A stretch of DNA of 64,000 bases from Pelagovum pacificum (GTDB lineage: Bacteria; Pseudomonadota; Alphaproteobacteria; Rhodobacterales; Rhodobacteraceae). The notes beneath the pieces are model-generated. The model did not search any database, was not told where the DNA came from, and saw only the letters and a list, made by a program, of their open reading frames with translations. This document shows positions 49,104-64,000 of this stretch, piece by piece. Within the stretch, counting starts at the first letter, position 1. Each line of letters opens with the position of its first letter. Location: the NCBI RefSeq assembly GCF_016134045.1, contig NZ_CP065915.1, forward strand, positions 868,001 through 932,000. The letters are read 5' to 3'. The position numbers were made by a program, and so were the translations under genes.

Positions 49104-49733
49104 TCAGACCTGCTCCAGCTCGCTCTTGATCATCTGGCGGATGCGCTTGCGTTCCGAGCGGCTCGAGATCTGGCGCGTCTGGGGCGATACGGGCACGACC
49201 TGCCACGGGTCGGACGACCGGTCGACGCGGAATTCGCGCTGGGCCGCGACTTCGAGGTCATCGCCCCCGAAGGCCCCCACGACCATGATCTGAAAGCGCT
49301 CCACGTCGTCGGGGATGCCGGAGCCGTCGTAGTCCTCCGCCTGCTCGGCGGTGATGTCGAGCAGGTTGCGGAACGAGCCGAGCGTCATGAACTCGCCCCG
49401 GTTCAGCGGGCCGTTCGCCGTGACGCCGTCGGGGCGGTCGCCCTCGGCGGAGCGCTGCAGGATTTCGCGGTCGGTGATCGTGGCGGACAAATCGCCCGAA
49501 GCACGATGGATCGTGCAGTAGACGTTCTGTGCGTAAACCGGCTCTTGGCTCATGTTGGACAGCAGGCAGAGACCGTTCAGGTCGCTGCCCGACACCCGGT
49601 TGATGATGATGCGGGGCCTGCGCGCGCGCATGTAGGTCACAAGGAACAGGTGCAGGTAGGCCACCCAAGCCAGCAACATGCCCAGGTTGACGAAGAAGTT
49701 CAGCGCGGAGCTGTATTCGGAAATCCACTGCAT
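49104..49733 (-). CDS. Membrane-anchored protein of unknown function
   Basis: A 209-residue protein with one membrane segment near residues 12-35 (LNFFVNLGMLLAWVAYLHLF), a basic RARRPRI stop-transfer, and a soluble C-terminal domain. The C-terminus is rich in charged residues (RSERKRIRQMIKSELEQV). ATG 49733 is preferred to an ATG eight codons upstream because GAGGG precedes it at good spacing. I do not recognise the family with certainty. It converges with the LacI gene and shows no link to the sugar operon. Confidence 0.75.
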   Translation of the reverse strand: MQWISEYSSALNFFVNLGMLLAWVAYLHLFLVTYMRARRPRIIINRVSGSDLNGLCLLSNMSQEPVYAQNVYCTIHRASGDLSATITDREILQRSAEGDRPDGVTANGPLNRGEFMTLGSFRNLLDITAEQAEDYDGSGIPDDVERFQIMVVGAFGGDDLEVAAQREFRVDRSSDPWQVVPVSPQTRQISSRSERKRIRQMIKSELEQV

Positions 49734-49839
49734 CGGGTCACCCTCGTTTGAAACCATCGTCTGGCTTGCGAACGTGCTATGTCGGGCGACGTTCCTTGGT
49801 GTCCGGCCAAACCTTTGTTTCCCTCTCCCCGATCAAATA

Positions 49840-49855
49840 TTGCATTCGTATGCAA
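49840..49855. promoter_or_regulatory. LacI-type operator copy 1 (HisD-like gene promoter)
   Basis: TTGCATTCGTATGCAA: 6-base arms TTGCAT/ATGCAA around a central CG, a typical LacI-family architecture. It ends 39 bases before the HisD-like ATG. Near-identical sites lie at 52715-52730 and 62326-62341. Confidence 0.75.
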
Positions 49856-49894
49856 AACTGCTAACGAAGGGAAAATCACACCGGAAGTGAGGCC

Positions 49895-51181
49895 ATGACC
49901 AGCGAGACCACCAGCCCGAAGGCTCCCGTTTTCATCAAGGCGCCGTCGCGCAACGCGACCGCCGACAACGCCCCCGTCGAGACGCTCGTCACCGAGGTGA
50001 TCGCCCGCGTCCGTGCCGAGGGCGACGCCGCCGTGCGCGACTATTCCAGGCAGTTCGACAAGGCCGAGCTCGAGGTCTTTGAAGTGAGCGAGGCCGATCG
50101 GCTCGCGGCGCTGGAAGAGCTCGATCCGCAGACCCGTGCCGATACCGAGTTCGCGATCACCAACGTGACCAACTTCGCAAAAGCGCAGCTCGGCACGCTG
50201 TCGGCCCTCGATGTCGAGATCCTGCCGGGCGTCCATCTCGGTCACCGCAACATCCCGCTCGACCGGGTGGGGTGCTACGTGCCGGGCGGTCGCTTCCCGC
50301 TTCTGTCAGCGCCGATCATGACCATCGTTCCGGCCAAGGTTGCCGGAGTGAAAGAAGTCGTCGCCTGTCTGCCGCCGAACGCACATCGCGCGATGATTGC
50401 CGGCTGCCACCTTGCCGGAGCCGACCGCATCTTCAGGATCGGCGGCGCGCAGGCGATCGCGGCGATGGCGCTCGGCACGGAGAGTGTGCCGAAGGTCGAC
50501 AAGATCGTCGGACCCGGCAATGCCTTCGTCAACGAGGCGAAGCGGCAGGTCTTCGGCCCTGTCGGTATCGACCAGCTTGCCGGACCGTCCGAGATCTTCG
50601 TCCTCGCCGACGAGACGGGCGATGCAGAGATGATCGCGACCGACCTTCTCGCGCAGGCCGAGCATGACGTGCGCACCCGAGTGGGCCTCATCACCACGCA
50701 CAAGCCGCTGGCCGACGCGGTGCTGGCCGAGGTGGAGCGTCAGCTGTCCGACCTGTCCACCGCCGAGATCGCCGCCCGCTCCTGGGAGGATTACGGTGAG
50801 ATCGCGCTGGTCGAGGACGAGGCCGCGATGATCGCCTATTCCGACCACGTCGCCGCCGAACACCTGCAGGTCCACACCGTCGATCCGCAGGGGTTCGCGA
50901 AGAAGCTGAGCCACTACGGCTCGCTCTTCATCGGCGAGCTGTCGAGTGTCGTCTATTCCGACAAATGTTCGGGAACGAACCACACGCTGCCGACGATGGC
51001 CGCCGGCCGTTACACCGGCGGGCTGTGGGTCGGAGCCTACATCAAGACCGCGACGCACCAGTGGCTCACCGAGGAAGGCGTGAAGCAGGTCGCCCCGCCC
51101 GCCGCGCGTCAGGCGGCGAGCGAGGGTCTCGAAGGGCACCGCCGCGCCGCGCAGCTGCGGCTCGACCGGCTTCAGGCGTAA
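49895..51181 (+). CDS. HisD-family (histidinol-dehydrogenase-like) NAD-dependent dehydrogenase
   Basis: A 428-residue zinc dehydrogenase. All six active-site positions of HisD are kept: zinc ligands Gln254, His257, Asp356 and His415 and the catalytic pair Glu322-His323, with SGTNHTLPT close to the family form. The gene is not with other his genes; it has a LacI operator and faces an amidase unit. HisD paralogues of this kind can oxidise other amino- or hydroxy-alcohols, for example HpsN with sulfopropanediol. The reaction is likely a four-electron alcohol-to-acid oxidation; the substrate is unknown. Confidence 0.85.
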   Translation: MTSETTSPKAPVFIKAPSRNATADNAPVETLVTEVIARVRAEGDAAVRDYSRQFDKAELEVFEVSEADRLAALEELDPQTRADTEFAITNVTNFAKAQLGTLSALDVEILPGVHLGHRNIPLDRVGCYVPGGRFPLLSAPIMTIVPAKVAGVKEVVACLPPNAHRAMIAGCHLAGADRIFRIGGAQAIAAMALGTESVPKVDKIVGPGNAFVNEAKRQVFGPVGIDQLAGPSEIFVLADETGDAEMIATDLLAQAEHDVRTRVGLITTHKPLADAVLAEVERQLSDLSTAEIAARSWEDYGEIALVEDEAAMIAYSDHVAAEHLQVHTVDPQGFAKKLSHYGSLFIGELSSVVYSDKCSGTNHTLPTMAAGRYTGGLWVGAYIKTATHQWLTEEGVKQVAPPAARQAASEGLEGHRRAAQLRLDRLQA

Positions 51182-51182
51182 G

Positions 51183-52529
51183 TCAGACGGGCGGGCGGTG
51201 GACCGAGTGGTCCGTCGCCCGCTCGAAGGCATCGGCGATACGGCAGATGCGGGCCTCGGCCCCGTGCCGCCCGATGATCTGCAGGCCGAGCGGAAGGCCG
51301 TCGGCCATCCCGCAGGGCACGCTGATCGCCGGGTGGCCGGTGACATTGAACGGGAATGTCCGCATCGGCGTCCAGACCGCACCGTTCTCGAACGCCTTGA
51401 ACGCGGGTGCGGGGCCGAGGGTCGTCGCGGTGACGATCGCGTCGAACCCGTCGAGCGCCGCATCGACCTGCCGGGCAAGGCGGGCGGCATGGGCGCGGGC
51501 GGCGGCGAAGTCCTCCGCCGTCAGGGCAGCGCCGCTGACGAGGTTGATCCGCGCGTCTCGACCGTAGTCGCCATAGCGGCTGGCGAGGCGTTCGGCGTGA
51601 ACCTCGAGCGCCTCCGCCTGGATGATTACCGAGCCGGCAGCCTCCGCGAGCGCGTAGTCCGGCATCTCGATCAAGTCGACGCCGATACCGAGCCGCGACA
51701 GCCCGCCGACCGCGTCGTCGAGCGCCGGCAGAAGGGCGGGGTGGGCCGCCTCGTCCTCCGCCCAGTGCCGCGCGAAACCGATGCGCAGGCCCTCTGGCGA
51801 GAGGCCGAGCTCGCGGCTCGCCGGGTCCATGCCCTCGCCCGAGATCGCGTCGAGCATCAGCGCGGCGTCCGAGACGCAGGCGGCGAGCGGGCCGACCGTG
51901 TCGAGCGTGCGCGACAGCGGGTAGACCCCGCCATCGGGCACGCGGCCCCGCGTCGGCTTCAGCCCGACGATCCCGCAGTAGGACGCCGGGCTGCGCACGG
52001 AGCCGCCGGTGTCGGTGCCGAGTGCAGCGCGCACCATGCCTGCGGAGACGGCGGCCGCCGAACCCGAGGACGAGCCGCCGGTGATGTGCGCGACGTTCCA
52101 CGGGTTCTTCGCGGGCGGGTAGGGCTGGTCCCATGCCGGGCCGGTCAGCGCGAACTCGTAGGTCGCGACCTTGGCCACCGGGATCGCCCCGGCGCGGCGC
52201 AGGGCGGCGACGGGGGCGCTGTCGGTCGCGGCGATCGTCGGATCGACGGCGGTCGAGCCGCAGAAGCCGGGCAGGCCGGCGACGTCCATCAGGTCCTTCA
52301 CGGCGAAGGGCAGGCCGTGCAGCGGCCCGGCTTCGTCCCCGTCGGTCAGCGCCGCCTGTGCCGCGCGTGCGGCCTCCATCGCGTCGCCCGCGACGGCGGT
52401 CACTGCATCAAGCCCGCGCCGCGCCTCGATGCGGGCAAGCGTCGCTTCCATCAGCGCTTCGCACGTGAGCGTTCCGGCCCTCAGAGCGGCCGCCTGTTCC
52501 GCCATCGGGCGGTCGATCCACTCACGCAT
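51183..52529 (-). CDS. Amidase (amidase-signature family, AtzE/GatA-like)
   Basis: A 448-residue amide hydrolase. The Ser-cisSer-Lys triad is present: Lys78 in AVKDLMDV, the Ser run at 153-155 in GGSSSGS, and nucleophile Ser177 in DTGGSVRS. ATG 52529 overlaps the end of a 54-codon GatC/AtzG-like gene by eight bases, the arrangement seen for AtzG-AtzE biuret-type hydrolases. Ends two bases from the convergent HisD-like gene. Substrate unknown; cytoplasmic. Confidence 0.88.
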   Translation of the reverse strand: MREWIDRPMAEQAAALRAGTLTCEALMEATLARIEARRGLDAVTAVAGDAMEAARAAQAALTDGDEAGPLHGLPFAVKDLMDVAGLPGFCGSTAVDPTIAATDSAPVAALRRAGAIPVAKVATYEFALTGPAWDQPYPPAKNPWNVAHITGGSSSGSAAAVSAGMVRAALGTDTGGSVRSPASYCGIVGLKPTRGRVPDGGVYPLSRTLDTVGPLAACVSDAALMLDAISGEGMDPASRELGLSPEGLRIGFARHWAEDEAAHPALLPALDDAVGGLSRLGIGVDLIEMPDYALAEAAGSVIIQAEALEVHAERLASRYGDYGRDARINLVSGAALTAEDFAAARAHAARLARQVDAALDGFDAIVTATTLGPAPAFKAFENGAVWTPMRTFPFNVTGHPAISVPCGMADGLPLGLQIIGRHGAEARICRIADAFERATDHSVHRPPV

Positions 52530-52686
52530 CGTCGGCCTCAGGCAGCGACAGACGCACGGACCGTGCAAGATCGGAAAGCTTGCGGGCCGCGTCCAGCGCG
52601 CGGTCCTCGTCCTCGGACGGCAGGGTGATGCCGAGCGCGGCAAGGCGCTGGCGGATGGTTTCGAGCGACAGGGGCTCTTCGGTCAT
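52522..52686 (-). CDS. Small GatC/AtzG-like amidase partner (54 residues)
   Basis: A short gene from ATG 52686: SLETIRQRLAALGITLPSEDEDRALDAARKLSDLARSVR. Two amphipathic helices and the position directly upstream of, and overlapping, an amidase gene suggest an AtzG/DUF4089 or GatC-like subunit that wraps around the amidase. Longer in-frame starts upstream would cross the operator at 52715-52730, so the short form is chosen. Similarity is by eye and the family name is tentative. Confidence 0.7.
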   Translation of the reverse strand: MTEEPLSLETIRQRLAALGITLPSEDEDRALDAARKLSDLARSVRLSLPEADDA

Positions 52687-52714
52687 CGGGGATGGCTCCG
52701 GACTTCGAGAGGTA

Positions 52715-52730
52715 TTGCATACGTATTCAA
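52715..52730. promoter_or_regulatory. LacI-type operator copy 2 (divergent amidase/SnoaL promoter)
   Basis: TTGCATACGTATTCAA, one mismatch from perfect symmetry, midway in the 100-base gap between the small amidase-partner gene and the SnoaL gene. It can therefore control both directions. Matches the copies at 49840 and 62326. Confidence 0.75.
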
Positions 52731-52786
52731 CATGGGGCAGAAGGCTTGGCAAGAGGCTCGCGCCCGACCGACAGCAGGAGACGACG

Positions 52787-53956
52787 ATGGCGACCACGAC
52801 CGACAAAACCGAAGACGCGCCGAAGGCGAAGACCCCGGCGCAGCCGAAGGACGACGTGCTTCAGTGCGAACGGCTGGATTTCGTCGATCTCGTGCCCGAG
52901 AACCGGCCGCGCGGCCAGTCGATGAAGGGATTCGACGACTGCTACACGGACATCGTCGACTACATCGTGCGCTGTACCCACAAGATCTGGGACGAGCGCG
53001 ACGTCGGACTGATCTACACCCACTACACCCATAACTGCGTCCTCTACGGAACGATGGGCACCATGTACAACCGCGAGGACGTCGTCCGCGACACGATCCA
53101 GCGGCTCGTCTCGCTGCCCGAACGCCGGGGCATGGCGACCCAGGTGATCTGGAAGGGCAACGACGTCGATGGCTTCTACACCAGCCACCTCGTCACCGGC
53201 TCCGGGCGGCACAGCCAGAACGGCCATTACGGCCCTGCGACTGGCCGTCCCTTCGTGTCGCGCACCGTCGCCGACTGTATGGTCTACGAGAACAAGATCT
53301 ACCGCGAGTGGGTCGTCGCCGACCAGATGGCGATCGTCCGCCAACTCGGCCTCGACCCGCACGCCTTCGCCGAGAAGGTCGCCGCGACCAAGCTGGCGCA
53401 GGGCCTGAAGAGCCTCGATATCGGTGAGACCGGCCTGATGATGGGTCAATACCCGCCGTCCGAACTGCCGCTCGACACCTCCATCGCGTCGACCGACCTC
53501 GAACGGAGCACGCTACAGTGGCTGCACGCGGCCTATAACCGCAAGATGTTCGGCATCCTGCGCGACGTCTATGCGCCGACCGTGATGTACCACGGGCCGC
53601 TGATGAAAGAGCTCTACGGCATCACCGCCGTCAGCCACCAGATGATCGGCCTCGTCGGCGCGATCCCCGACGCCGTCTTCATGCCGCAGCATGTCTGTTC
53701 GGTCGATTGCGTCGAGGGTGGCACCAAGGTCGCGGTCCGCTGGGTCATGGAAGGCCATCACCTCGGCTTCGGCGGGCTCGAGTCGCTGGGCGATCCGACA
53801 GGCAAGCGGGTGCAGGTGATGGGCATGTCCCACTTCCACTACAAGGACGGCAAGATCGTCGACGACTGGACGGTCTACGACGAACTCTCCATGCTGGTGC
53901 AGGTGAAGCTCGCGCAGCTCGCCGACCGCCCGGCGGCGATCGAGGCCGCTGAGTAA
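52787..53956 (+). CDS. Tandem SnoaL/NTF2-like domain protein
   Basis: A 389-residue cytoplasmic protein with two related NTF2-like (SnoaL) halves: about 60-200 (YTHNCVLYGTMGTMYNREDVV, then HYGPATGRPFVSRTVADCMVYENKIYREWVV) and about 240-380 (YAPTVMYHGPLMKELYGITAV, then FHYKDGKIVDDWTVYDELSML). ATG 52787 has an AGGAG site. SnoaL folds serve as cyclases, isomerases, hydratases or binding proteins. With the dehydrogenase and amidase it is probably catabolic; the activity is unknown. Followed by the LacI gene. Confidence 0.8.
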   Translation: MATTTDKTEDAPKAKTPAQPKDDVLQCERLDFVDLVPENRPRGQSMKGFDDCYTDIVDYIVRCTHKIWDERDVGLIYTHYTHNCVLYGTMGTMYNREDVVRDTIQRLVSLPERRGMATQVIWKGNDVDGFYTSHLVTGSGRHSQNGHYGPATGRPFVSRTVADCMVYENKIYREWVVADQMAIVRQLGLDPHAFAEKVAATKLAQGLKSLDIGETGLMMGQYPPSELPLDTSIASTDLERSTLQWLHAAYNRKMFGILRDVYAPTVMYHGPLMKELYGITAVSHQMIGLVGAIPDAVFMPQHVCSVDCVEGGTKVAVRWVMEGHHLGFGGLESLGDPTGKRVQVMGMSHFHYKDGKIVDDWTVYDELSMLVQVKLAQLADRPAAIEAAE

Positions 53957-53976
53957 TCAGAAGGAGCAGCCCGAGA

Positions 53977-54987
53977 GTGGGGGACAAGCCGGTCACATCC
54001 GTGGACGTCGCGCGCAAGGCCGGCGTCAGCCAGTCCGCCGTGTCCCGCTTCTTCACCCCGGGCGCGTCCGTCTCCAAGAAGATGGCCGAGCGGATCCGCG
54101 TCGCCGCGGAAGAGCTCGGCTATCGGCCGAACGTGCTGGCCCGGTCGCTGATCACCGGCAAGAGCCGGATCGTCGGGCTCGTCGTCCATTACCTCGAGAA
54201 CCAGTTCTATCCCGAGGTGGTCGAACGGCTGTCGATCGCGCTTCAGGATCAGGGCTATCACGTGCTGCTCTTCATGGCGCAGCGCACCGTCGGCGATGTC
54301 GAGGATGTCGTGCAGCGCATCCTCGACTACCGGGTCGACGCGCTGGTGCTGGTGTCCGTCTCCATGTCCTCGACCCTGACCGAGCGCTGCGTCGGGTTGT
54401 CGATCCCGGTGATGCTGTTCAACCGCGACCAGCCCGGCAGCGGTCTGCGCGCCGTCACAAGCGACAACCGGGCGGGCGGGCGTCTGGCGGCCGAGGCGCT
54501 GCTGGCCGGTGGGCTGCGCCGGATTGCACACCTGCGCGGGTTCGAGGACGCCTCGACCGACCGCGACCGCGCCGACGGCTTTTGCGCCGCGCTGGCCGAG
54601 GCAGGCGTCGACGTGGCGATCACGGAGTTCGGCGACTACCATTATGACACCGCCTGCGAGGCGACCCGGCGCATCTTCGACCGCACCGACCGGCCCGACG
54701 CGCTCTTCGTGGCGGACGATCACATGGCCTTCGCCGCGCTCGACGTGATCCGCACGGAGTTCGGACTGTCGGTGCCGGGCGATGTGGCCGTGGTCGGGTT
54801 CGACGACGCGCCGGCTGCCGCCTGGCCGAGCTTCGATCTCACCACCGTTCGGCAGGACCGTGCGGCGATGGTGGCAGCGGCCGTTGCCGCGACCATCGGC
54901 GCGATCGAGGGCGACGAGACGGGCGGCGACCGGCAGCTCGCGCTGCCGGTGACGCTCGTCACTCGTGGGTCGACTCGGCGAGGCTAG
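53977..54987 (+). CDS. LacI-family regulator of the HisD/amidase/SnoaL island
   Basis: A 336-residue repressor from GTG 53977 with an AAGGAG site. Helix-turn-helix TSVDVARKAGVSQSAVSRFF and hinge NVLARSLITGKS, then an effector domain (VVGFDDAPAAAWPSFDLTTVRQ). The recognition helix and hinge closely match those of the LacI protein at 62424-63443. In an operon with the SnoaL gene behind operator copy 2, so autoregulated if it binds there. Its 3' end overlaps the convergent MFS gene by 29 bases. Confidence 0.92.
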   Translation: MGDKPVTSVDVARKAGVSQSAVSRFFTPGASVSKKMAERIRVAAEELGYRPNVLARSLITGKSRIVGLVVHYLENQFYPEVVERLSIALQDQGYHVLLFMAQRTVGDVEDVVQRILDYRVDALVLVSVSMSSTLTERCVGLSIPVMLFNRDQPGSGLRAVTSDNRAGGRLAAEALLAGGLRRIAHLRGFEDASTDRDRADGFCAALAEAGVDVAITEFGDYHYDTACEATRRIFDRTDRPDALFVADDHMAFAALDVIRTEFGLSVPGDVAVVGFDDAPAAAWPSFDLTTVRQDRAAMVAAAVAATIGAIEGDETGGDRQLALPVTLVTRGSTRRG

Positions 54988-56167
54988 CCGCGAAGCGCAG
55001 CCCGGCGAGCGCGATCAGCGCCGCGCCGAACATCGCCACCACACTCCACCCCGCCATGACGTAGATCCACGCGCCGAGGGCCGACCCGACGGCCCCGCCG
55101 GCGGTGAAGCAGGCCATGAAGACGCCGTTCAGTCGTGCCCGGTTGCCGGGCGCGAGGCCGAAGATCGTGCGTTGCCCGATCACGAAGCTCATCGAGACAC
55201 CGAGGTCGAGCAGCAACGCGGCGAGGATCAGCAGACAGGTCCCCGTCATCCCGCCTGCAGGCGCGATCCCCGCGATCGCGAAGGCGACGAACCCGGTGAA
55301 CAGCGCGAAGCCGGTGCCCTGCCGTGACAGGCCCCGGTCGGCGAGCGTGCCGGCGACGGGGGCGGCGATGGCGCTCATCGCACCGGCGAGGGCGAAGATG
55401 CCGATCTCCGCGTGGCTCCAGCCCCAGCGGGGGCCGGCGAGCCAGAGCGGCACCGTCGTCCAGAACAGCGAGAAGCCCGAGAACAGCGCGACCTGGTAGA
55501 GGATGCGCTGCCGCAGCACCGGCATGGAGGCGAGCGCGCGGCCCATGGAACGCAGGACTGCGGTATAGGGTTCTGACACGGCTGGGCGGCGTTGTGGCAG
55601 GCGCGCGGCCAGCGCGGCCAGCAGGCCGGCCATCAGTGCCGCGCTGATCCAGAACATCGCGCGCCAGCCGAGGGCCTCCGCGACGAAGCCCGCGACGGGC
55701 CTTGCCAGCATGATGCCAAGCATCAGCCCCGAGGTGACGAAGCCGACCGTGCGGCCCCGCCGCTCTTCCGGGGCGAGGTGAGTGGCATAGGGCACCAGCA
55801 CCTGCACGCAGACGGACCCGAGTCCGATGGACAGGCACGCGGCGAGGAACAGTGGCGCGAAGGTCGTCGCGCCGGCCAGCATCAGCGCCAGTCCGGCGAG
55901 CGTGGTCAGCCCGAGGATCAGGCGGCGGTTCTCCAGCCGGTCGGCCAGTGGCACGACAAGCAGCAGCCCGGCGCCGTAGCCGATCTGGGTCAGAGTGACG
56001 ACGAAGCCGGCGGCCCGCTCGGACAGGCCGAGGTCGGCGGCGATCGGACCGGCGAGGGGCTGGGCGTAGTAGACGTTCGCCGCGAGCAGCCCGCAGGCGA
56101 CGGCGAGCAGCGGCATCAGGTAGTCCGGTGCGGTCCGGGGGCTCGATACGGCGGGGGAGGGGGTCAT
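54959..56167 (-). CDS. MFS transporter, last gene of the alpha-glucoside operon
   Basis: A 402-residue major facilitator protein with 12 hydrophobic segments, starting at ATG 56167 (ATGA overlap with the alpha-glucosidase gene). Motifs LADRLENRR after TM2 and YATHLAPEERRGRTVGFVTSG after TM4 are typical of YnfM/AraJ-like exporters. Presence in a sugar-uptake operon hints at sugar or sugar-product efflux, which guards against sugar stress; this is inference. Confidence 0.87.
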   Translation of the reverse strand: MTPSPAVSSPRTAPDYLMPLLAVACGLLAANVYYAQPLAGPIAADLGLSERAAGFVVTLTQIGYGAGLLLVVPLADRLENRRLILGLTTLAGLALMLAGATTFAPLFLAACLSIGLGSVCVQVLVPYATHLAPEERRGRTVGFVTSGLMLGIMLARPVAGFVAEALGWRAMFWISAALMAGLLAALAARLPQRRPAVSEPYTAVLRSMGRALASMPVLRQRILYQVALFSGFSLFWTTVPLWLAGPRWGWSHAEIGIFALAGAMSAIAAPVAGTLADRGLSRQGTGFALFTGFVAFAIAGIAPAGGMTGTCLLILAALLLDLGVSMSFVIGQRTIFGLAPGNRARLNGVFMACFTAGGAVGSALGAWIYVMAGWSVVAMFGAALIALAGLRFAASLAESTHE

Positions 56168-57867
56168 CGGTCGCCCCACGCGCAGATCATCACCGACCAG
56201 CCGCCGAGCATTACGTCCGAACCGATCAGGCTGGCGTCCGAGGCCAGAAGCTCGCGCACCGGGCCGGGCCTGTCGGGCAAGGCGAAGGTCTGAGGCGACG
56301 CGCCGAAGTTCAGGACGACGGCGATGCCGTCTGCGCCGATTTCGCGGGCGAAGGCGAAGACCTGCGGGTGATCGGGGGCGAGGTCGCGGTAGTCGCCGTA
56401 GACCAGCAACTCCTGCGCCTTGCGCAGCTCTATCAGGGCGCGGGTGAAGGCCCACGCGCCGTTCGGGTCCGCCATCGCGGAGGTGGCGTTGATTTCGGCG
56501 GAGTTCGGGTTGACCGGCAGCCACGGGGTGCCGCTGGTGAAGCCGCCCTCGGCGGAGGCGTCCCATTGCATCGGCGTGCGGGTGTGGTCGCGGCTCGTCC
56601 GGTTCAGGCGGGTCAGGAACGTGGCCTCGTCGGCTGTTCCGGTAGCCTGGGCTGCGGCCCAGGCGTTGCGCACGGCGATGTCCTGGAACTGGCCGATCGC
56701 GGTGAAGGGGAAGTTGGTCATCCCGAACTCGTCGCCCTGGTAGAGAAACGGCGTGCCCTTCTGGGTCAGCAGCAGCGCGTTCAGCACCTTGGTCGAGGCG
56801 ACGCGCCACTCGGCGCTGTCATCGCCGTAGCGGCTGACCGGCCGGGTCGTGTCGTGGTTGGCGAGGTAGACCGTCGTCCAGCCGTGCGCGTCCATGCTGT
56901 CGGCCTGCCGGGCGAAGATCTCCTTGAACTCGGGCAAGGTCCAGTCGCGGGGATTGCCGGCCGCATCGCGGTCGAACTCCACCACGTCGAACTGGAAGAT
57001 CATGTCGAGCTCTTCGCGCCGCTCGTCCACGACGCGGCGCATCTGGTCCTGGTCGAGGCCGTTGCCTTCACCCACCGTGGCGCAGTCGTAGTGCGAGAGC
57101 ACCTCGCGGCGCATCTCCCGAAGGTAGTCGTGCAGGCGCGGACCCTCGGCGTAGTGCTTCTGCGGCTTGATTCCGGCCGGCAGGTCGGGCAGGGCGGGGT
57201 CCTTCGAGATGAAGGGGATCACGTCCATCCGGAAGCCGTCGACGCCCTTGTCGAGCCAGAAGCGCATGAGGTCCCAGACCTCGCCGCGCACCGCGGGGTT
57301 ATCCCAGTTCAGGTCGGGCTGCTTTGCCGCGAAGAGGTGGAGGTAATATTGCCCCGAGGCCTCATCCAGCGTCCAGGCGGGGCCGGAGAAGAAGCTCGGC
57401 CAGTTGTTCGGCGGGCTGCCGTCGGGGGCGGGGTCGCGCCAGATGTAGTAGTCGCGCGTGGCGGCGTCCTTGCCCTGACGCGCCTCGGCGAACCATGCGT
57501 GCTCATTGCTTGTGTGGTTGACGACGAGGTCGACGATCAGCCGGATGCCGCGCGCATGCAGCCCGTCGAGAAGCGCGTCGAAATCGTCCATGGTGCCGAA
57601 TTGGGACATCACCGCGCGGTAGTCGCGGATGTCATAGCCGTTGTCGGCGTTCGGGCTGTCGTAATGCGGCGAGAGCCAGACCATCGTGACGCCAAGGTCC
57701 GAGAGGTAGTCCAGCTTGCTCACGATCCCGGCGAGGTCGCCGACTCCGTCGCCGTCGCTGTCCATGAAGCTGCGCGGGTAGATCTGGTAGGCGACCGCCT
57801 CCTTCCACCACCGCCGCGCGATGCCGTTCACCCGCTCCGGGGTGGTCTCTGTCTTGTCCTTGGGCAT
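56164..57867 (-). CDS. aglA: Alpha-glucosidase, GH13 family
   Basis: Cytoplasmic 567-residue GH13 enzyme (oligo-1,6-glucosidase/alpha-glucosidase subfamily). Conserved regions: DLVVNHTS near 113-120, GFRMDV with nucleophile Asp215, VGEGNG with acid/base Glu267, and ANHDTTRP with the transition-state Asp339. Splits imported maltose-, sucrose- or trehalose-like alpha-glucosides. Lies 14 bases after the ATPase gene. Confidence 0.92.
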   Translation of the reverse strand: MPKDKTETTPERVNGIARRWWKEAVAYQIYPRSFMDSDGDGVGDLAGIVSKLDYLSDLGVTMVWLSPHYDSPNADNGYDIRDYRAVMSQFGTMDDFDALLDGLHARGIRLIVDLVVNHTSNEHAWFAEARQGKDAATRDYYIWRDPAPDGSPPNNWPSFFSGPAWTLDEASGQYYLHLFAAKQPDLNWDNPAVRGEVWDLMRFWLDKGVDGFRMDVIPFISKDPALPDLPAGIKPQKHYAEGPRLHDYLREMRREVLSHYDCATVGEGNGLDQDQMRRVVDERREELDMIFQFDVVEFDRDAAGNPRDWTLPEFKEIFARQADSMDAHGWTTVYLANHDTTRPVSRYGDDSAEWRVASTKVLNALLLTQKGTPFLYQGDEFGMTNFPFTAIGQFQDIAVRNAWAAAQATGTADEATFLTRLNRTSRDHTRTPMQWDASAEGGFTSGTPWLPVNPNSAEINATSAMADPNGAWAFTRALIELRKAQELLVYGDYRDLAPDHPQVFAFAREIGADGIAVVLNFGASPQTFALPDRPGPVRELLASDASLIGSDVMLGGWSVMICAWGDR

Positions 57868-57881
57868 GTCTTGGTCTTTCG

Positions 57882-58949
57882 TCAGGCGGCCGTCAGCGCG
57901 GGTTCGATCCGCTGTCCCGTGGTGCCGTCGAAGATGTGGCTGACCTCGGGCGTGACCTTTGCGCGGACGGTCTCACCGATCTCGAGGCTCGCCGACTTGT
58001 CGGCCTTGAGCGAGATCAGATCCTCGCGCGCGCGGATCGCGAACATGGTGGAATCGCCGAGCCGCTCGACCGAGTAGACCGGCGCGGCGAGATTGCCGCC
58101 TTCGCTGACGACTTCCACGTCCTCCGCCCGGAAGCCGAGCGTCGCGGGTCCACTGTGGCGGTGGGCCAGCCCCTCGACCGTGAGGACCGGAGAGCGGAAG
58201 GTGCCGCCCGACATCTCGCCCTCGATCAGGTTCATCGCCGGGGCGCCGATGAAGCCCGCGACGAAGGTGTTGGCGGGCTTGTTGTAGATCTCCATCGGCG
58301 GCGCGATCTGCTGGGCGATGCCGTGGCGCATCACGACGACACGGTCGGCCAAGGTCATCGCCTCGACCTGGTCGTGGGTGACGTAGACCGTCGTCGTCTT
58401 CAGCTCGTGGTGGAGGTTGGCGATCTGGGCCCGCGTGGACACGCGCAGCTTGGCGTCGAGGTTCGACAGTGGCTCGTCCATCAGGAAGGCGTTCGGCGCA
58501 CGCACGATGGCGCGGGCGAGCGCGACCCGCTGGCGCTGGCCGCCGGAGAGCGCGGCGGGACGGCGGTCGAGGAACTGGGTCAGCTCGACCATCTCGGCCG
58601 CCTTCATCACGCGGGCCTTGTGCTCCGCCTTCGGGACCTTCCGGATGCGCAGCGGGAAGCGGATGTTCTCGTAGACCGACATGGTGGGGTATAGCCCGTA
58701 GCTCTGGAACACCATCGAGATGTCGCGGTCCTTCGGCTCCAGCTTGTTGACCATCCGGTCACCGAGCCAGATCTCGCCTTCGGTCACGTCTTCGAGGCCC
58801 GCGATCATCCGCATCGTGGTGGACTTGCCGCACCCCGAGGGGCCGAGCAGGACGAGGAATTCGCGGTCGGGAATGTCGAGGTTCAGGTTGTCGACGCCGA
58901 CGAAGTCGTTCCAGCGGCGGGTGATGCCCTTCAGCTTGATTTCGGCCAT
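57882..58949 (-). CDS. aglK: Alpha-glucoside ABC transporter ATP-binding protein
   Basis: CUT1 ATPase of 355 residues from ATG 58949; the open frame continues upstream only as out-of-phase permease sequence. Walker A GPSGCGKST, LSGGQRQRVALARAI, AFLMDEPLSNLD, THDQVEAMTLADR and a TOBE domain (LGFRAEDVEVV). Confidence 0.91.
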   Translation of the reverse strand: MAEIKLKGITRRWNDFVGVDNLNLDIPDREFLVLLGPSGCGKSTTMRMIAGLEDVTEGEIWLGDRMVNKLEPKDRDISMVFQSYGLYPTMSVYENIRFPLRIRKVPKAEHKARVMKAAEMVELTQFLDRRPAALSGGQRQRVALARAIVRAPNAFLMDEPLSNLDAKLRVSTRAQIANLHHELKTTTVYVTHDQVEAMTLADRVVVMRHGIAQQIAPPMEIYNKPANTFVAGFIGAPAMNLIEGEMSGGTFRSPVLTVEGLAHRHSGPATLGFRAEDVEVVSEGGNLAAPVYSVERLGDSTMFAIRAREDLISLKADKSASLEIGETVRAKVTPEVSHIFDGTTGQRIEPALTAA

Positions 58950-58954
58950 CGGGA

Positions 58955-59842
58955 TTATCCTTTCACGGCGCCGGCGGTCAGGCCGCCCACGATCTGGCGT
59001 TGGAAGAACATGATGAGGATGAACAGCGGCACCGTGGCCGAGACCACCGAGGAGACCGCGAACATCACGTTGCCCTCGCTCTCGATCGAGCCGAGGAAGG
59101 ACGCGATCTTCGGGATCATCGTCTGGTTCTCCTGGCTCAGCAGCATCGCGGTCACCGCGAAGTCGTTGTAGGCGAGCAGGAAGCTGAACAGCCCCGTGGT
59201 GATGATGCCCGGCCACATGACCGGCACGATCACCTCGCGGAATGCCTGGAAGCGGGTGCAGCCGTCGACCATCGCGCTTTCGTCGAGGTCCTTGGGGATC
59301 GACAAGAAGAAGCTGTGCAGCATCCAGAGCGTGAAGGGCTGGTTGATCGCCACCAGTACGATGATCGCGGTCGGCAGAGTGCCCCAGATGTTCAGCTCGA
59401 AGAACGGGACGAGGTAGCCCGACACCAGCGTGATGTGTGGCATGGCGCGGAAGATCAGGGCGAGGATCAGGATCCAGAAGGCGTAGCGGTAGCCCGACCG
59501 GGCCAGCGCATAGCCCCCGAGCGTTCCGACCACCAGCGACAGGATCGTCACGGTCACGGTCACGAAGGCGGTGTTGAGTACGGCGCGCCAGAACTCGTTC
59601 TGGATCCACGCGCCCTCGTAGCCGTCCATCGTGAACGCGTCGCCGGTCTGGCGGATCGTGTTCACGCCGGTGATCGCGTTCGTCCAGTCGGTGCGCGAGA
59701 AGAAGTCGGGTTCGACCTTGAACGAGCCCCACGTGGTCCAGAGGAACGGGAAGCCTGCGACGACCAGCCAGATCAGAACGAATGCGGTGGCCAGTATGGT
59801 CAACGTGCGGTTGGGGCGGTGTGGGGTCGTGGTAGCGGACAT
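58955..59842 (-). CDS. aglG: Alpha-glucoside ABC transporter permease (AglG/MalG type)
   Basis: CUT1 permease of 295 residues with EAA loop DLDESAMVDGCTRFQAFREVIVPV and C-terminus FFQRQIVGGLTAGAVKG. It has a long first periplasmic loop (about residues 40-100), as in Agl-type permeases. Five bases before the ATPase gene. Confidence 0.9.
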   Translation of the reverse strand: MSATTTPHRPNRTLTILATAFVLIWLVVAGFPFLWTTWGSFKVEPDFFSRTDWTNAITGVNTIRQTGDAFTMDGYEGAWIQNEFWRAVLNTAFVTVTVTILSLVVGTLGGYALARSGYRYAFWILILALIFRAMPHITLVSGYLVPFFELNIWGTLPTAIIVLVAINQPFTLWMLHSFFLSIPKDLDESAMVDGCTRFQAFREVIVPVMWPGIITTGLFSFLLAYNDFAVTAMLLSQENQTMIPKIASFLGSIESEGNVMFAVSSVVSATVPLFILIMFFQRQIVGGLTAGAVKG

Positions 59843-59855
59843 GACGCGGCCCTCC

Positions 59856-60893
59856 TTAGTGGGCGCCCTTGCGCGAGAAGTCGCGCCAGGTGCGGATGAG
59901 GACGGGGAAGAGCAGGATGATGACGAAGAAGATCGTCAGCATCGACGTCGCGGCGGCGGAGCCGAACAACTGTCCGTTCTGCGCCTGCAAGTCGTTGTAG
60001 ATGCTGAAACTCAGCGACGTGGCCCGGGCCTGCGCGTTGAAGCCGATGATCGGTTCAAGCACGCGGAAGTTGTCCATCAGCTGCACCAGCGACACGAAGG
60101 TGGCGAGCGGGATCAGGTGCGGGATGATGACGAAGCGCACGCGCTCCCACCGGTTCGCCCCGTCGATCATCGCCGACTCCAGCGTGTCCTGTGGAACGGT
60201 CTGAAGCCCTGCGTAGAAGACGACGAAGCTGAAGGGGGCCGCGATCCAGATGCCGTAGAGGAACAGCATCACCCATGTCAGCGGGCCGGAGGCGGCGATC
60301 GACAGCGTCGGGTCCTGCGCCAGCCATTGCAGCAGGCTGCCGAGGATTCCCCGGCTGTTAACCATCCAGAAGATCACCAGCGAGCCGATCAGCGGCGTGA
60401 TGATCATCGGCAGCAGCGATACGAAGATCACCGGCCCCTTCAGCATGTTCGGGATGCGGTTCACCGCGAGGGCGATCCAGAAGCCGAGGAACATGCCGCA
60501 GGGCGTGACCAGGAACGTGTAGCAGATCGTGAAGAACAGGGCCCGGTAGAAGGGCAGCTGGTAAATCCGGTTGATCGCCTCACCGAAGCTGTCGGCATTC
60601 TCGAGGATCGCACCGATCTCGGCGAAGGCGAGGTGGTTGCGGTTCAGGTAGGTGCCGAGGCCGTTGAACCGGCCGAGCGGCTCGGCCTCGCGAAGCGCGG
60701 CGGTCGCCTGGGCGTCGACCCGGGTCTCCTGCGTGCAGCCACCGAAGGGGGAGCAGCTCTCGACCTCGACCAGCACCTGCTGGTGCTCGACGAACAGCGA
60801 CTGGATCACGATGGAGACGAGCGGCAGGGCGATGAACAGCAGCATCGCGACGGCGGAGGGGAGGATGAACCATGCGAAGGCCTTGTGGGGCAC
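59856..60893 (-). CDS. aglF: Alpha-glucoside ABC transporter permease (AglF/MalF type)
   Basis: CUT1 permease of 345 residues. A periplasmic insert after TM1 contains two Cys residues (ESCSPFGGCTQ, about 47-57), which could form a disulfide. EAA loop TLESAMIDGANRWERVRFVIIPHL. The 132-base gap to the binding-protein gene holds a very stable hairpin. Confidence 0.9.
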   Translation of the reverse strand: MPHKAFAWFILPSAVAMLLFIALPLVSIVIQSLFVEHQQVLVEVESCSPFGGCTQETRVDAQATAALREAEPLGRFNGLGTYLNRNHLAFAEIGAILENADSFGEAINRIYQLPFYRALFFTICYTFLVTPCGMFLGFWIALAVNRIPNMLKGPVIFVSLLPMIITPLIGSLVIFWMVNSRGILGSLLQWLAQDPTLSIAASGPLTWVMLFLYGIWIAAPFSFVVFYAGLQTVPQDTLESAMIDGANRWERVRFVIIPHLIPLATFVSLVQLMDNFRVLEPIIGFNAQARATSLSFSIYNDLQAQNGQLFGSAAATSMLTIFFVIILLFPVLIRTWRDFSRKGAH

Positions 60894-60965
60894 GGCGCGC
60901 TCCTTCGTTCTGGGGGCTGGCGTCAGGGTCGCGCTTGCGACGGTCCGGTCCGATTGGGACCATGT

Positions 60966-61010
60966 CGGGCCCGGCCGCCCAAGGGGGAGGAGGAGGGGCG
61001 GCCGGGCCCG
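60966..61010. repeat. 15-bp GC-rich hairpin between binding-protein and permease genes of the alpha-glucoside operon
   Basis: Arms CGGGCCCGGCCGCCC (60966-60980) and its perfect complement (60996-61010) around a 15-base purine-rich loop (GGGGGAGGAGGAG). It begins 15 bases past the binding-protein stop on the minus strand. No T-run follows. Likely mRNA stabiliser or partial terminator that raises binding-protein expression over the permeases. Confidence 0.75.
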
Positions 61011-61025
61011 GTATCAGGACGGGCT

Positions 61026-62267
61026 TCAGTTCATGAAGCCGCGTTCCTGAGCTGCGGCGGTGTAGGCGGCTTCGACACCTTCGAGCGCCTGTTCGGCGGT
61101 CTCGTTGCCCTGCAGGAAGTCGACCAGTTCGGTGCCGAGGGCCGAGTGCATCAGGTCCATGTAGGGCAGCGTCGGGTAGGCGAGGCCACCCTCGGCGACG
61201 TTGGCCATGATGCCGACGGCGTTGTCGGTCGGCTCGTAGCCGTCGATCATCCAGCTCGCGCCGGTCGGGTGCTCGCCGGCGAGCTCCGGGGCGATCGCAT
61301 TCATCATCACCTGGAACGACGCGGCCGCATCTTCGTCGGAGATGTTGGCGGAGATCGAGAAGCCGTCCCAGAACAGCGCGCCGCTCGGGATACTGTTCTC
61401 CCCGAGCGTCGGCGCGGCGGTCAGCACAGTGTTCGGCGCCACCTCGGGGAAGTCGCCCTCCACGTCGATCAGCGGACCGGCCTGGCTGGCCCAGAGGTTC
61501 ATGATCGCGGCTTCACCCGCGCCCCACTTCTTGGAGGCTTCGAGCGAGCCGACCGACAGGTAGTCGGGGTCCATGTACTCGGTCAGCGCCTTCATGGTCT
61601 CGAGAACCTCGATCCCGGCTTCGCCGTTGATCGCCGGCTCGGCCGAGCCAGGCTCGAAGAAGGGCTCGCCGGTCGCGGTGTACATGTTGATGAACTCTTC
61701 CGCGAGCTCCCAGCCCGGAGCGTAGGCACCGGTCAGCGGGTACTCGAGGATGCCGGCGGCGCGGATCGCTTCGGCGGCGTCGATCACTTCGGCCCACGTG
61801 GTCGGCGTCTCGGTGATGCCGGCCTCTTCGAGGATGTCGGAGCGCGTGAACAGGTGCATGCCGTTCACCATGAAGGCGATCGCCATGATCTGGCCGTCGA
61901 TGCGGATGATCTGCGCATCGGACAGTTGCTCGCCATATTGCTCGACGAGGTCGTCCATCGGGCGGACGAGGTCAGCGTTCAGCAGCGGCGGCAGGGAGTT
62001 GTTGGCGATGACCGCGACCGTGTATTCCGCCGGATTGATGGAGAGGGCGGGAACCTGAAGGTTCTTGTGCTCTTCCGTCTGGTTGATCGACACCGTCAGG
62101 TCGTCCGTGGCGCAGGAGCTTGCGCGCTCCATGACGAGATCAAGCGCGCCGAAATCGTTGGCAAGGATGCGGACGGAGCCGCTGTCGGTGATGCCGCAAT
62201 CGGCGCTTGCGACTGCCGGAAACATGCCCAAAAGGGCAGCAGCGGAGACACTGGTCAGCTTGTTCAT
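61026..62267 (-). CDS. aglE: Alpha-glucoside ABC transporter substrate-binding protein
   Basis: Periplasmic binding protein, 413 residues from ATG 62267 with a signal peptide (AALLGMFPAVASADC). Later motifs include MVNGMHLFTRSDILEEAGITETPTTW, standard for family-1 sugar-binding proteins. An in-frame ATG further upstream would run through the operator at 62326, so the shorter start is used. First gene of the operon. Confidence 0.9.
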   Translation of the reverse strand: MNKLTSVSAAALLGMFPAVASADCGITDSGSVRILANDFGALDLVMERASSCATDDLTVSINQTEEHKNLQVPALSINPAEYTVAVIANNSLPPLLNADLVRPMDDLVEQYGEQLSDAQIIRIDGQIMAIAFMVNGMHLFTRSDILEEAGITETPTTWAEVIDAAEAIRAAGILEYPLTGAYAPGWELAEEFINMYTATGEPFFEPGSAEPAINGEAGIEVLETMKALTEYMDPDYLSVGSLEASKKWGAGEAAIMNLWASQAGPLIDVEGDFPEVAPNTVLTAAPTLGENSIPSGALFWDGFSISANISDEDAAASFQVMMNAIAPELAGEHPTGASWMIDGYEPTDNAVGIMANVAEGGLAYPTLPYMDLMHSALGTELVDFLQGNETAEQALEGVEAAYTAAAQERGFMN

Positions 62268-62325
62268 GTAGAGGTCCTCTCTGCGGTGCGAACGTTTTTC
62301 GAGTTCTTGTTGTCTTTTTGCTGTT

Positions 62326-62341
62326 TTGCATTCGTATGCAC
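62326..62341. promoter_or_regulatory. LacI-type operator copy 3 (alpha-glucoside operon promoter)
   Basis: TTGCATTCGTATGCAC, identical to operator copy 1 except the last base. About 60 bases upstream of the binding-protein ATG, between it and the LacI gene. Shared motif with 49840-49855 and 52715-52730. Confidence 0.75.
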
Positions 62342-62423: not shown

Positions 62424-63443
62424 TTAGAAACGTGCGCTCTGGCGTTCGACGAGCTCTCCGCGGACGTCGAGATCGCGCAATGGCGAATCGGGCGCGCGGC
62501 TTCGATCATCGAGGAGCGACGCCGCATTCTCGGCCAGCGCTCCGAGATCCTGCCGCACGGTTGTGAGCAGGTAAGAGGGGCGCGCGGCCTCGGGAACATC
62601 GTCGAAGCCTACGACGGAGACGTCCTGCGGCACCGCGAGGCCGAGGTCGTAGCGCAGGGCGTCGGTGGCGCCCATCGCGAGCTGGTCATTGACACAGAAG
62701 ACGGCGTCGGGGGCAGGGGACGCGCCCAACGCGTCAAGCATCGCCGCGCGCCCGCCGGCATAGGAGAAGTCGGTGACGACCGACCGGGGGCGGACGGCGC
62801 CGAGTTCTTCCAGCCGGGCGGAGAACCCCTCCGCCCGCTCATGCCCGACGGGCGCGTCGGCGGGACCGGCGAGGCACAGGAACGACCGGTGCCCCGCCTC
62901 CCAGAGCCGGTCGGCGAGCCGGGCGGCGGCGGCGTGATGCTCCGTGCAGACGGAATCCGCGAGCCCGCGCGCCCGGCGATTATAGAGAACGACGGGAATG
63001 CGGTTCATCCGGAAGCCGTCCAGATGCTCCGCTGTCAGCGTCACGCAGGAGATCGCTCCCTCAAGCGGATAGCTCCATGCTTCGCTAACCGCGTTCTGGA
63101 CGTCGCTCTCGTCCGCGGGGGAGAACAGCAACATTCGCTGGCCCCGCCGGCCCAGCGCCTGGCTTATCGCGGTCAGCATCTCGGGCATGGCGAGGATGGA
63201 TTGACGGGTGACGATCACGGCCACCATGCCGGAGCGACTGGTGATGAGCGACCGCGCCAGCGCGTTCGGCGTGTAGCCCATCCGCGTGGCCACGTCGCGC
63301 ACATGCTCGCGCGTCGCGGCGGAAATCCGGCTGTCGTCGCTGAAGCTACGGGAGACGGTCGATTGCGAGACCCCGGCCTCGCGCGCGACATCGGATGCGG
63401 TGACCCGCTTGCCGATCGCCGTCTGCGGTCCCGCGTTGCCCAT
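62424..63443 (-). CDS. LacI-family regulator of the alpha-glucoside operon (AglR-like)
   Basis: A 339-residue repressor. Helix-turn-helix TASDVAREAGVSQSTVSRSF, hinge NALARSLITSRS, effector domain with FCVNDQLAMGATDALRYDLGLA and VGFDDVPEAARPSYLLTTVRQD. ATG 63443 is taken; an in-frame ATG at 63479 would add 12 residues and cannot be excluded. Upstream of the binding-protein gene in the same direction, as aglR is in Sinorhizobium. Confidence 0.9.
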   Translation of the reverse strand: MGNAGPQTAIGKRVTASDVAREAGVSQSTVSRSFSDDSRISAATREHVRDVATRMGYTPNALARSLITSRSGMVAVIVTRQSILAMPEMLTAISQALGRRGQRMLLFSPADESDVQNAVSEAWSYPLEGAISCVTLTAEHLDGFRMNRIPVVLYNRRARGLADSVCTEHHAAAARLADRLWEAGHRSFLCLAGPADAPVGHERAEGFSARLEELGAVRPRSVVTDFSYAGGRAAMLDALGASPAPDAVFCVNDQLAMGATDALRYDLGLAVPQDVSVVGFDDVPEAARPSYLLTTVRQDLGALAENAASLLDDRSRAPDSPLRDLDVRGELVERQSARF

Positions 63444-63601
63444 CGACCTGGCCTCTCCCGTGTCGTTTGTCCCTGTCATCCAAGGATTTTTCCCGGCGCT
63501 TGCGAAGTCAAGCCGCTCCCGGACGTCACCCGGCTTACGTGAGGTCGCAACTTTCGTCCCGCACCGGCGTTGGCGACTCGTTCTCGCAGAAGGATCACAC
63601 C

Positions 63602-64000
63602 ATGGCATCGCGCGCGATCTGGAAAGGACAGCTTCGGCTCTCGCTTGTTTCGATCCCGATCGAAATCCACTCCGCCCGCAACTCCGGCGCCCGCGTCTCG
63701 TTCCGACAGATCCACGGGCCCTCGGGCAAGCCGGTCCACTATGAAAAGGTCGTCCAGGGCGTCGGTCCGGTCGAGAACGACGACATCATGAAAGGCTACG
63801 AGACGGACGACGGCGAATATGTCCTGCTGGAACCGGACGAGATCGACGCGATCCGGCTGGAGACGAAGAAGACGCTGGAGCTCGTCCAGTTCGTCGAGGC
63901 TTCCGAGATCGCGCCGATCTGGTTCGATCGGCCCTATTACGTGGTGCCGACCGACGATCTCGCCGAAGACGCCTATCGCGTGGTCCGCGATGCGCTGCGC
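63602..64000 (+). CDS. ku: Non-homologous end-joining protein Ku (5' part, cut by the window end)
   Basis: First 133 codons of a bacterial Ku protein: MASRAIWKGQLRLSLVSIPIEIHSA, then ISFRQIH-like VSFRQIHGPSGKPVHYEK and YETDDGEYVLLEPDEIDAI. Ku forms a ring dimer on DNA ends and recruits ligase LigD, normally encoded nearby, which here would lie beyond the window. AAGGA precedes ATG 63602. Divergent from the LacI gene and functionally unrelated to it. Confidence 0.93.
   Translation, partial: MASRAIWKGQLRLSLVSIPIEIHSARNSGARVSFRQIHGPSGKPVHYEKVVQGVGPVENDDIMKGYETDDGEYVLLEPDEIDAIRLETKKTLELVQFVEASEIAPIWFDRPYYVVPTDDLAEDAYRVVRDALR

Follow-up and report, generated by a model that had tools for sequence, protein, structure and literature searches.

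The stretch of DNA considered here (the window) comprises 64,000 nt of the 4.09-Mb genome of Pelagovum pacificum and contains a catabolic island with genes for a HisD-family dehydrogenase (HisD2), an amidase-signature hydrolase, a SnoaL-type protein and a LacI-family regulator (LacI1), together with genes for an MFS transporter, a GH13 enzyme, an ABC importer with its solute-binding protein (SBP) and a second LacI-family regulator (LacI3, hereafter the 62424 regulator). A 16-bp operator pattern, TTGCATNCGTATNCAA, recurs at three places in this region, termed O1, O2 and O3 and compiled with the genes in Table 1. A first-pass annotation of this DNA had taken them for three copies of one LacI operator, each at a promoter, which tied an unexplained catabolic island to an alpha-glucoside operon through either site-sharing paralogues or one regulon. 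From comparisons within the genome and among its relatives it is highly probable that the three sites are the operators of one local LacI-family regulon controlling the island, which is patchy among close kin, and the proposal that the HisD/amidase/SnoaL genes and the ABC-importer operon are linked by operators of a single class is upheld.

Table 1. Genes of the island and operator sites in the window
Feature	Position	Strand	Remarks
Operator O1	49840..49855	.	TTGCATTCGTATGCAA, exact match to pattern; 39 bp before hisD-like gene
HisD-family dehydrogenase (HisD2)	49895..51181	+	Pfam PF00815; NCBIfam hisD model above cut-off; PDB matches
Amidase-signature hydrolase	51183..52529	-	Pfam PF01425; top NCBIfam match AtzE family, below cut-off
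54-aa ORF preceding amidase, overlaps amidase start	52522..52686	-	No Pfam match above cut-off
Operator O2	52715..52730	.	TTGCATACGTATTCAA, exact match; divergent gap, amidase unit versus snoaL-lacI unit
SnoaL/NTF2-like protein, two matched stretches ('ester cyclase')	52787..53956	+	Pfam PF07366
LacI-family regulator, island type (LacI1)	53977..54987	+	LacI DNA-binding and periplasmic-binding-like domains
MFS transporter	54959..56161	-	Pfam PF07690; counterpart at equal place in L035 and L136
GH13 alpha-glucosidase-type enzyme	56164..57867	-	Domain match; PDB relatives
UgpC/MalK-type ABC ATPase	57882..58949	-	NCBIfam NF008653 above cut-off
Second ABC permease	58955..59842	-	Pfam PF00528; island clade in tree
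First ABC permease	59856..60893	-	Identity to island permeases
Extracellular solute-binding protein (SBP)	61026..62267	-	Pfam PF01547
Operator O3	62326..62341	.	TTGCATTCGTATGCAC, one mismatch; 58 bp before solute-binding-protein gene
LacI-family regulator, second rare lineage (LacI3; 'AglR' of the first-pass annotation)	62424..63608	-	Same two LacI domains; true start uncertain

The three sites are real, with the qualification that O3 is not an exact copy, its one mismatch to the pattern being the last base. O2 lies 56 bp from the start codon of snoaL and 28 bp from that of the small open reading frame (ORF) preceding the amidase gene. The statement that the window holds no other copy proved correct even at 3 mismatches, where all six strand-rows derive from O1, O2 and O3, against a mean of 1.01 and a maximum of 4 in 100 shuffles. 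A scan of the whole genome at ≤2 mismatches returned the three sites and one more place, C1:2640475 (TTGCACTCGTGTGCAA), with 1 row for the reversed-pattern control. This additional place sits between a different LacI gene and a different SBP-like gene; with its 2 mismatches, and adjoining a LacI and an SBP-like gene of its own, it was rejected as a fourth member of the regulon. The genome-wide scan that the annotation had asked for thus shows the site to be rare and leaves the regulon reading standing: the operator is a palindrome that precedes its target genes and is seldom met in the rest of the genome, as expected of a local LacI-type regulon.

The operator also accompanies islands of this kind in other bacteria. 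The SnoaL-type protein has 1682 homologues at E ≤0.001, and relative loci were fetched with it, one genome per species, the best 80 of 110 relatives being retained (1.57 Mb); most are from Rhodobacterales, Rhizobiales (Devosia and others) and Enterobacterales, and the remainder include one metagenome bin of Halomonas and some unplaced bins. At ≤2 mismatches, 216 sites were found in 79 of the 80 loci, whereas ten dinucleotide shuffles averaged 8.2 and never exceeded 13, and the reversed pattern gave 4 sites in 3 loci; at ≤1 mismatch there are 159 sites in 76 loci versus 0.8 in the shuffles. The sole locus without the operator, L095, begins 107 bases before its match. Measured from the estimated start of an island-type gene (hisD, hisD1, snoaL, LacI, SBP, cupin, alpha/beta hydrolase, amidase or SDR), virtually all sites (214/216) fall within a span that reaches from 450 bp upstream to ~70 bp into the gene, a placement for which no chance level was computed. 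The comparison of related genomes, likewise called for by the annotation, accordingly finds the operator conserved at orthologous genes alongside the regulator. When 16 whole genomes were searched with WTGCATNCGNATGCAW at ≤1 mismatch, each gave 1 to 9 places, the reversed control one place in 3 of the 16; the places lie inside the island without exception (3/3) in G042 and the L035 genome, and other genomes, e.g. G590, which holds L041, have scattered further ones.

A finer view is provided by alignment of the operator gaps from the window and from two loci of the same layout, L035 (Pseudooceanicola antarcticus) and L136 (from G042). The operator columns are identical in all three genomes at 16/16 positions in the O1 gap (versus 49/125 in the rest of the gap), at 16/16 in the O2 gap (versus 41/135), and at 13/16 in the O3 gap (versus 49/153). 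While O1 and O2 are invariant, the outer bases of O3 vary, from TTGCATTCGTATGCAC in the window to ATGCATACGTATGCAT in L035 and ATGCATACGTATGCAC in L136. Copies placed by chance or by a repeat element, with no regulatory meaning, would have to be reconciled with these footprints, with the position of the sites at island gene starts and with their rarity in the genome and in shuffled sequence; no point in support of such an origin was found, and it was rejected on the genome rarity and the shuffle counts in the window and the relative loci as exceedingly improbable. The sites of the window are single. Paired operators occur in loci L092-L114 and L038-L046; a spacing of 89-90 bp is seen in 20 pairs, which by position belong to Enterobacterales-type loci, and one of 54-57 bp in 11 pairs, most of them from Rhodobacterales.

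The make-up of the island varies from locus to locus. In L036, L038, L040, L041, L043 and L045 the order is hisD, amidase (reverse), snoaL, SBP, permease, permease, ATPase, LacI, an order given by the annotation of L128 too, and it differs in other relative loci. Additional genes in the island on plasmid plas2 of Alloyangia pacifica, which that on pMM170 of Martelella mediterranea resembles, encode an SDR, an alpha/beta hydrolase, a cupin protein and an RraA-family protein, and hisD and LacI are each present there a second time. In 72 of the 80 loci there is a LacI gene with at least 30% identity to LacI1 or LacI2, the match in L095 being distant (38%), and the other 8 all end early at contig ends; an SBP homologue at 45% or above lies in the same stretch in 31/80, and the GH13 enzyme is found in 2/80 (L035 and L039) as well as in G042. 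Common to the window, L035 and L136 are hisD, amidase, snoaL, LacI1, MFS, GH13, ATPase, two permeases, SBP and the 62424-type regulator. In L039 (Pseudoroseicyclus aestuarii) the GH13-importer operon stands between snoaL-LacI1 and hisD1-SDR-cupin, after which alpha/beta hydrolase and RraA genes follow, and operator-like sites are located at hisD, at snoaL and in the SBP/hisD1 gap; no 62424-type gene occurs in the stretches of this locus that were read, ~44 kb in all. At the position of the 54-aa ORF, hypothetical proteins of 50 aa and 47 aa are annotated in L128 and L130, respectively. From its position this ORF might be AtzG-like, a guess to which Pfam lent no support.

Four other genomes of the genus contain no full-length SnoaL relative at E ≤1e-20, although G601 has a 34% partial match, and G065, of the same genus, carries a hisD1-SDR-LacI2 unit with an operator ~40 bp upstream; the island is therefore variable. 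Judged by its gene content, the window copy is a reduced island with an added GH13 enzyme. Alpha/beta-hydrolase Pfam domains were seen beside SnoaL in P0060, P0066, P0073, P0086, P0097, P0106 and P0111 (639-650 aa; among 120 homologues listed), fusion proteins that, by their domains, connect those two island steps. More operator-like sites and a hisD1-LacI pair were noted in L146-L147 (G590 contig C60), on a contig separate from that of L041 in the same genome, and possibly constitute a second island of G590. In addition, among L110 and L111, the island LacI of a record titled Chryseobacterium hardly differs from the LacI of a Citrobacter record, and the Chryseobacterium title is probably wrong.

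As for the protein that reads the operators, the likely candidate is LacI1, encoded downstream of snoaL behind O2: O2 precedes snoaL, and lacI follows it by 20 bp on the same strand. The recognition helices, GVSQSAVSR in LacI1 and GVSQSTVSR in the 62424 regulator, and the hinges, NVLARSLITGKS and NALARSLITSRS, are as the first-pass annotation had given them, and the LacI protein near 48.07 kb differs at the helix (GVSQTTVSL), as it had said. In a tree of 118 LacI rows, LacI1 belongs to a 16-row clade (100/100; L040 and L138 represent the same gene) and the 62424 regulator to a separate 5-row set, two rows of which are the same G416 gene, with its orthologues from L035 and G042. In helix groups assigned by hand from the tree, with 10 more rows set aside as other LacI proteins, the two main lineages have AGVSQSAVSR in 98/103 rows and AGVSRSAVSR in the other 5, and the 62424 lineage has AGVSQSTVSR in 5/5 rows, such that LacI1 and the 62424 regulator are set apart at the helix by one residue, A versus T. 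Base preferences per regulator class are biased at positions 1-6, since the sites were picked by similarity score.

The 62424 lineage is rare. With the own genome counted, it was detected in 2/149 genomes of the family (E ≤1e-70) and 2/390 of the order (E ≤1e-62), and the G416 protein as query found 2/385 genomes of the class (E ≤1e-75). A 48% relative of the 62424 protein is encoded in L137 (G416), where ATGCATTCGAATGCAT occupies two gaps of a variant island with a SnoaL-type protein, an HpcH-type aldolase, an alpha/beta hydrolase, a cupin, an importer and a 3-oxo-tetronate kinase above the NCBIfam cut-off. A 40% relative of the L137 protein, with the helix NVSQSSVSR, in turn stands in L150 (G774) beside TTGCATTCGAATGCAA in the hisD1/SDR gap of another variant island, which has hisD1, SDR, SnoaL, cupin and aldolase-type genes. 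As these relatives lie in variant islands with near-identical operators, both regulators of the window would stem from one kind of island and one operator class. The idea of paralogues sharing a site can be retained in the form that LacI1 and the 62424 regulator are plausible site-sharing relatives, both from island lineages with near-identical operators; the 62424 regulator may share the sites or read O3 alone.

The part of the earlier annotation that was not borne out is the label 'alpha-glucoside operon', which would make the arrangement an ordinary alpha-glucoside (agl) operon under AglR, joined by its operator to an unrelated catabolic island. The operon does encode a GH13 enzyme and a CUT1-type importer. 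Against the importers of other islands, however, the first permease shows 61-72% identity and the second 73-82%, with 80-92% for the loci of the window's layout (L035, L136 and L039) and 41-42% (first) and 56% (second) for the variant loci L042 and L137; the SBP shares 49-60% with island SBPs beyond the window's own layout. Other permeases of the own genome reach at most 29% identity to the first permease over >100 residues. When a tree was built for the second permease, the window and island permeases fell together in a supported 25-row clade (96/92), to the exclusion of the other own-genome permeases put in, and by this sequence evidence the importer belongs to the island's own importer clade.

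The AglR regulator offers a second line of comparison. According to the excerpt of PMC4052901 used here, the AglR motif of Rhizobiales and Rhodobacterales is nnntcAAAGCGCTTTgannn, with the core AAAGCGCTTT, and the regulator gene stands divergent from its operon; the 62424 regulator and the SBP operon lie on the same strand, unlike that arrangement. The AglR 14-mer TCAAAGCGCTTTGA has no match in the window at ≤3 mismatches. A separate locus of the own genome, L141 (~C1:2.002-2.010 Mb), encodes a LacI protein, two permeases, a GH13 enzyme and an ATPase, and contains two sites with the exact 10-base core AAAGCGCTTT, each 2 mismatches from the 14-mer; gene content and motif suggest that it represents the canonical agl locus. 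The 62424 protein was accordingly rejected as a canonical AglR on the missing motif, the rarity of its lineage and the AglR core elsewhere, and the importer as a canonical alpha-glucoside importer on the permease identities, the tree and the separate locus. An agl operon joined to a foreign island is consequently considered very unlikely. Since the importer falls in the island clade, an AglR-core locus exists elsewhere and the 62424 regulator is not AglR, the link drawn by the three sites lies within one island.

In the preferred model, LacI1 would bind O2 and so act on the unit that encodes it, snoaL-lacI, and on the amidase unit opposite; it would also bind O1, in front of the HisD-family dehydrogenase, and O3, in front of the genes for the ABC importer, the GH13 enzyme and the MFS protein. 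Lying in a divergent gap, O2 would govern snoaL-lacI as well as the amidase unit, so that LacI1 would regulate its own gene. LacI1 is envisaged to repress all units until the imported compound or its product releases it; the repressive mode is suggested by the position of the sites near start codons and by the usual mode of the family, and LacI1 binding, co-transcription and the inducer are predictions too. The 62424 protein is a second island-type regulator that probably overlaps LacI1 at O3.

Several observations weigh against this model. In all three genomes in which the 62424 regulator was seen, that of the window and those of both orthologous loci, O3 deviates from the consensus at its outer bases, and it may therefore belong to this regulator. 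LacI1 would in this case read O1 and O2 and the 62424 regulator O3 alone, with the likeness of the sites due to the common descent of the regulators. Such a division departs from the preferred model only at O3, and the confidences in the two overlap. The altered O3 counterparts, next to unaltered O1 and O2, and the relatives of the 62424 protein beside ATGCATTCGAATGCAT (L137, two gaps) and TTGCATTCGAATGCAA (L150) speak for it, but in L039 the GH13-importer site, TTGCAATCGTATGCAC, is also changed at an outer base where no 62424-type regulator was met in the stretches read, and the two recognition helices differ by one residue; two separate readers are thus regarded as possible, if somewhat unlikely. 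A second point concerns the counts, as the loci compared are akin to one another, and 79/80 and the numbers of sites do not represent independent events. Third, at ≤1 half-site mismatch the operator was found in 0/27 of the LacI2-type loci L008-L034, taken with 1.5-kb flanks from the best LacI matches; SDR or snoaL-type genes directly adjoin the LacI gene in many of these, and the promoter may therefore fall outside the stretch. Fourth, each site, placed at a promoter by the annotation, lies upstream of a start codon (28 to 58 bp), but a sigma-70 consensus scan of the three operator gaps found no promoter, and promoters at the sites are thus presumed. Finally, the own genome has only distant matches to HisD1 (48%, which is the window's own HisD2) and RraA (29%) of the full island, so that the pathway is reduced here and may act otherwise. 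The single local regulon remains the preferred interpretation with these points taken into account.

With regard to chemistry, a sugar-like compound would be imported, perhaps a glucosylated one because the GH13 enzyme was added here. The HisD-type enzyme would oxidise an alcohol, and SnoaL-type and amidase steps would follow, in outline. The HisD-family enzyme scores 452.2 bits against TIGR00069 (NCBIfam hisD; cut-off 243.8), yet it departs from a biosynthetic histidinol dehydrogenase in that its four best solved relatives are (R)-DHPS/sulfopropanediol dehydrogenases and another HisD-family gene is located at C1:1020505. The GH13 enzyme lies just above the cut-off of the NCBIfam phosphotrehalase subfamily model (541.6 vs 535 bits). 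The variant island at 539-13223 of L137 combines the 3-oxo-tetronate kinase with the HpcH-type aldolase and the SnoaL-type protein, and a class II aldolase-like ORF adjoins the kinase (ORF reading only); from this content, four-carbon sugar acids may be the end products of the island chemistry. A wider and rather tentative reading sees a widespread undescribed pathway of several proteobacterial orders under one LacI operator, with HisD-type oxidations, SnoaL-type enzymes, a cupin, an RraA or HpcH aldolase and a sugar-type importer; in the window it would be reduced and supplied with a sucrose-isomerase-like GH13 enzyme, and two LacI repressors of one operator class, sensing different compounds, would form a two-input switch.

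Two features border the island. A 217-aa protein is encoded divergently from hisD at 49104-49757 and has no match at E ≤1e-8 in the 80 relative loci. The segment 42119-49090 comprises an importer, a sulfatase-like enzyme (ORF reading only) and the LacI gene with the GVSQTTVSL helix, and is apparently a separate locus without this operator.

In open-licence full texts, the literature searched here, neither a description of this gene set nor a paper with the operator letters TTGCATACGTATGCAA was found, and either may be in print elsewhere. What emerges is a new regulon of known kind around a catabolic pathway. The operator serves as a search handle for uncharacterised island genes in Rhodobacterales, Devosia and other Rhizobiales, and Enterobacterales, and it allows members of the pathway to be listed by regulon, beyond neighbourhood alone. 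It also corrects a label to which annotation is prone, namely 'alpha-glucoside' for an importer and GH13 enzyme tied to another gene set, and the version with two regulators would be a natural case of LacI relatives that divide work on one operator class.

Among known systems, the HisD-family enzyme has its best solved relatives in HpsN-type sulfopropanediol 3-dehydrogenase (PDB 8wwe, 8v35), a likeness of sequence only; unlike HpsN, it sits with a sugar-type importer and a LacI regulator. The best solved relatives of the GH13 protein, by sequence, are sucrose isomerase and oligo-1,6-glucosidase (PDB 4how, 9u7v). With the AglR alpha-glucoside regulon, as portrayed in the same excerpt of PMC4052901, the island shares the combination of a LacI regulator with an adjacent GH13 enzyme and ABC importer, and it differs in operator, regulator lineage, orientation and importer clade. 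A further parallel is to the LacI-family local regulons treated in that excerpt (PMC4052901), with which it has in common the LacI helix-turn-helix joined to a sugar-binding-type domain, the CG-centred palindrome and a regulator adjoining its targets. The differences from the regulons described there are that the targets in the window's kind of island are HisD-family enzymes, SnoaL, cupin, RraA or HpcH aldolase and amidase, and that a single class of operator is accompanied by regulators of more than one lineage.

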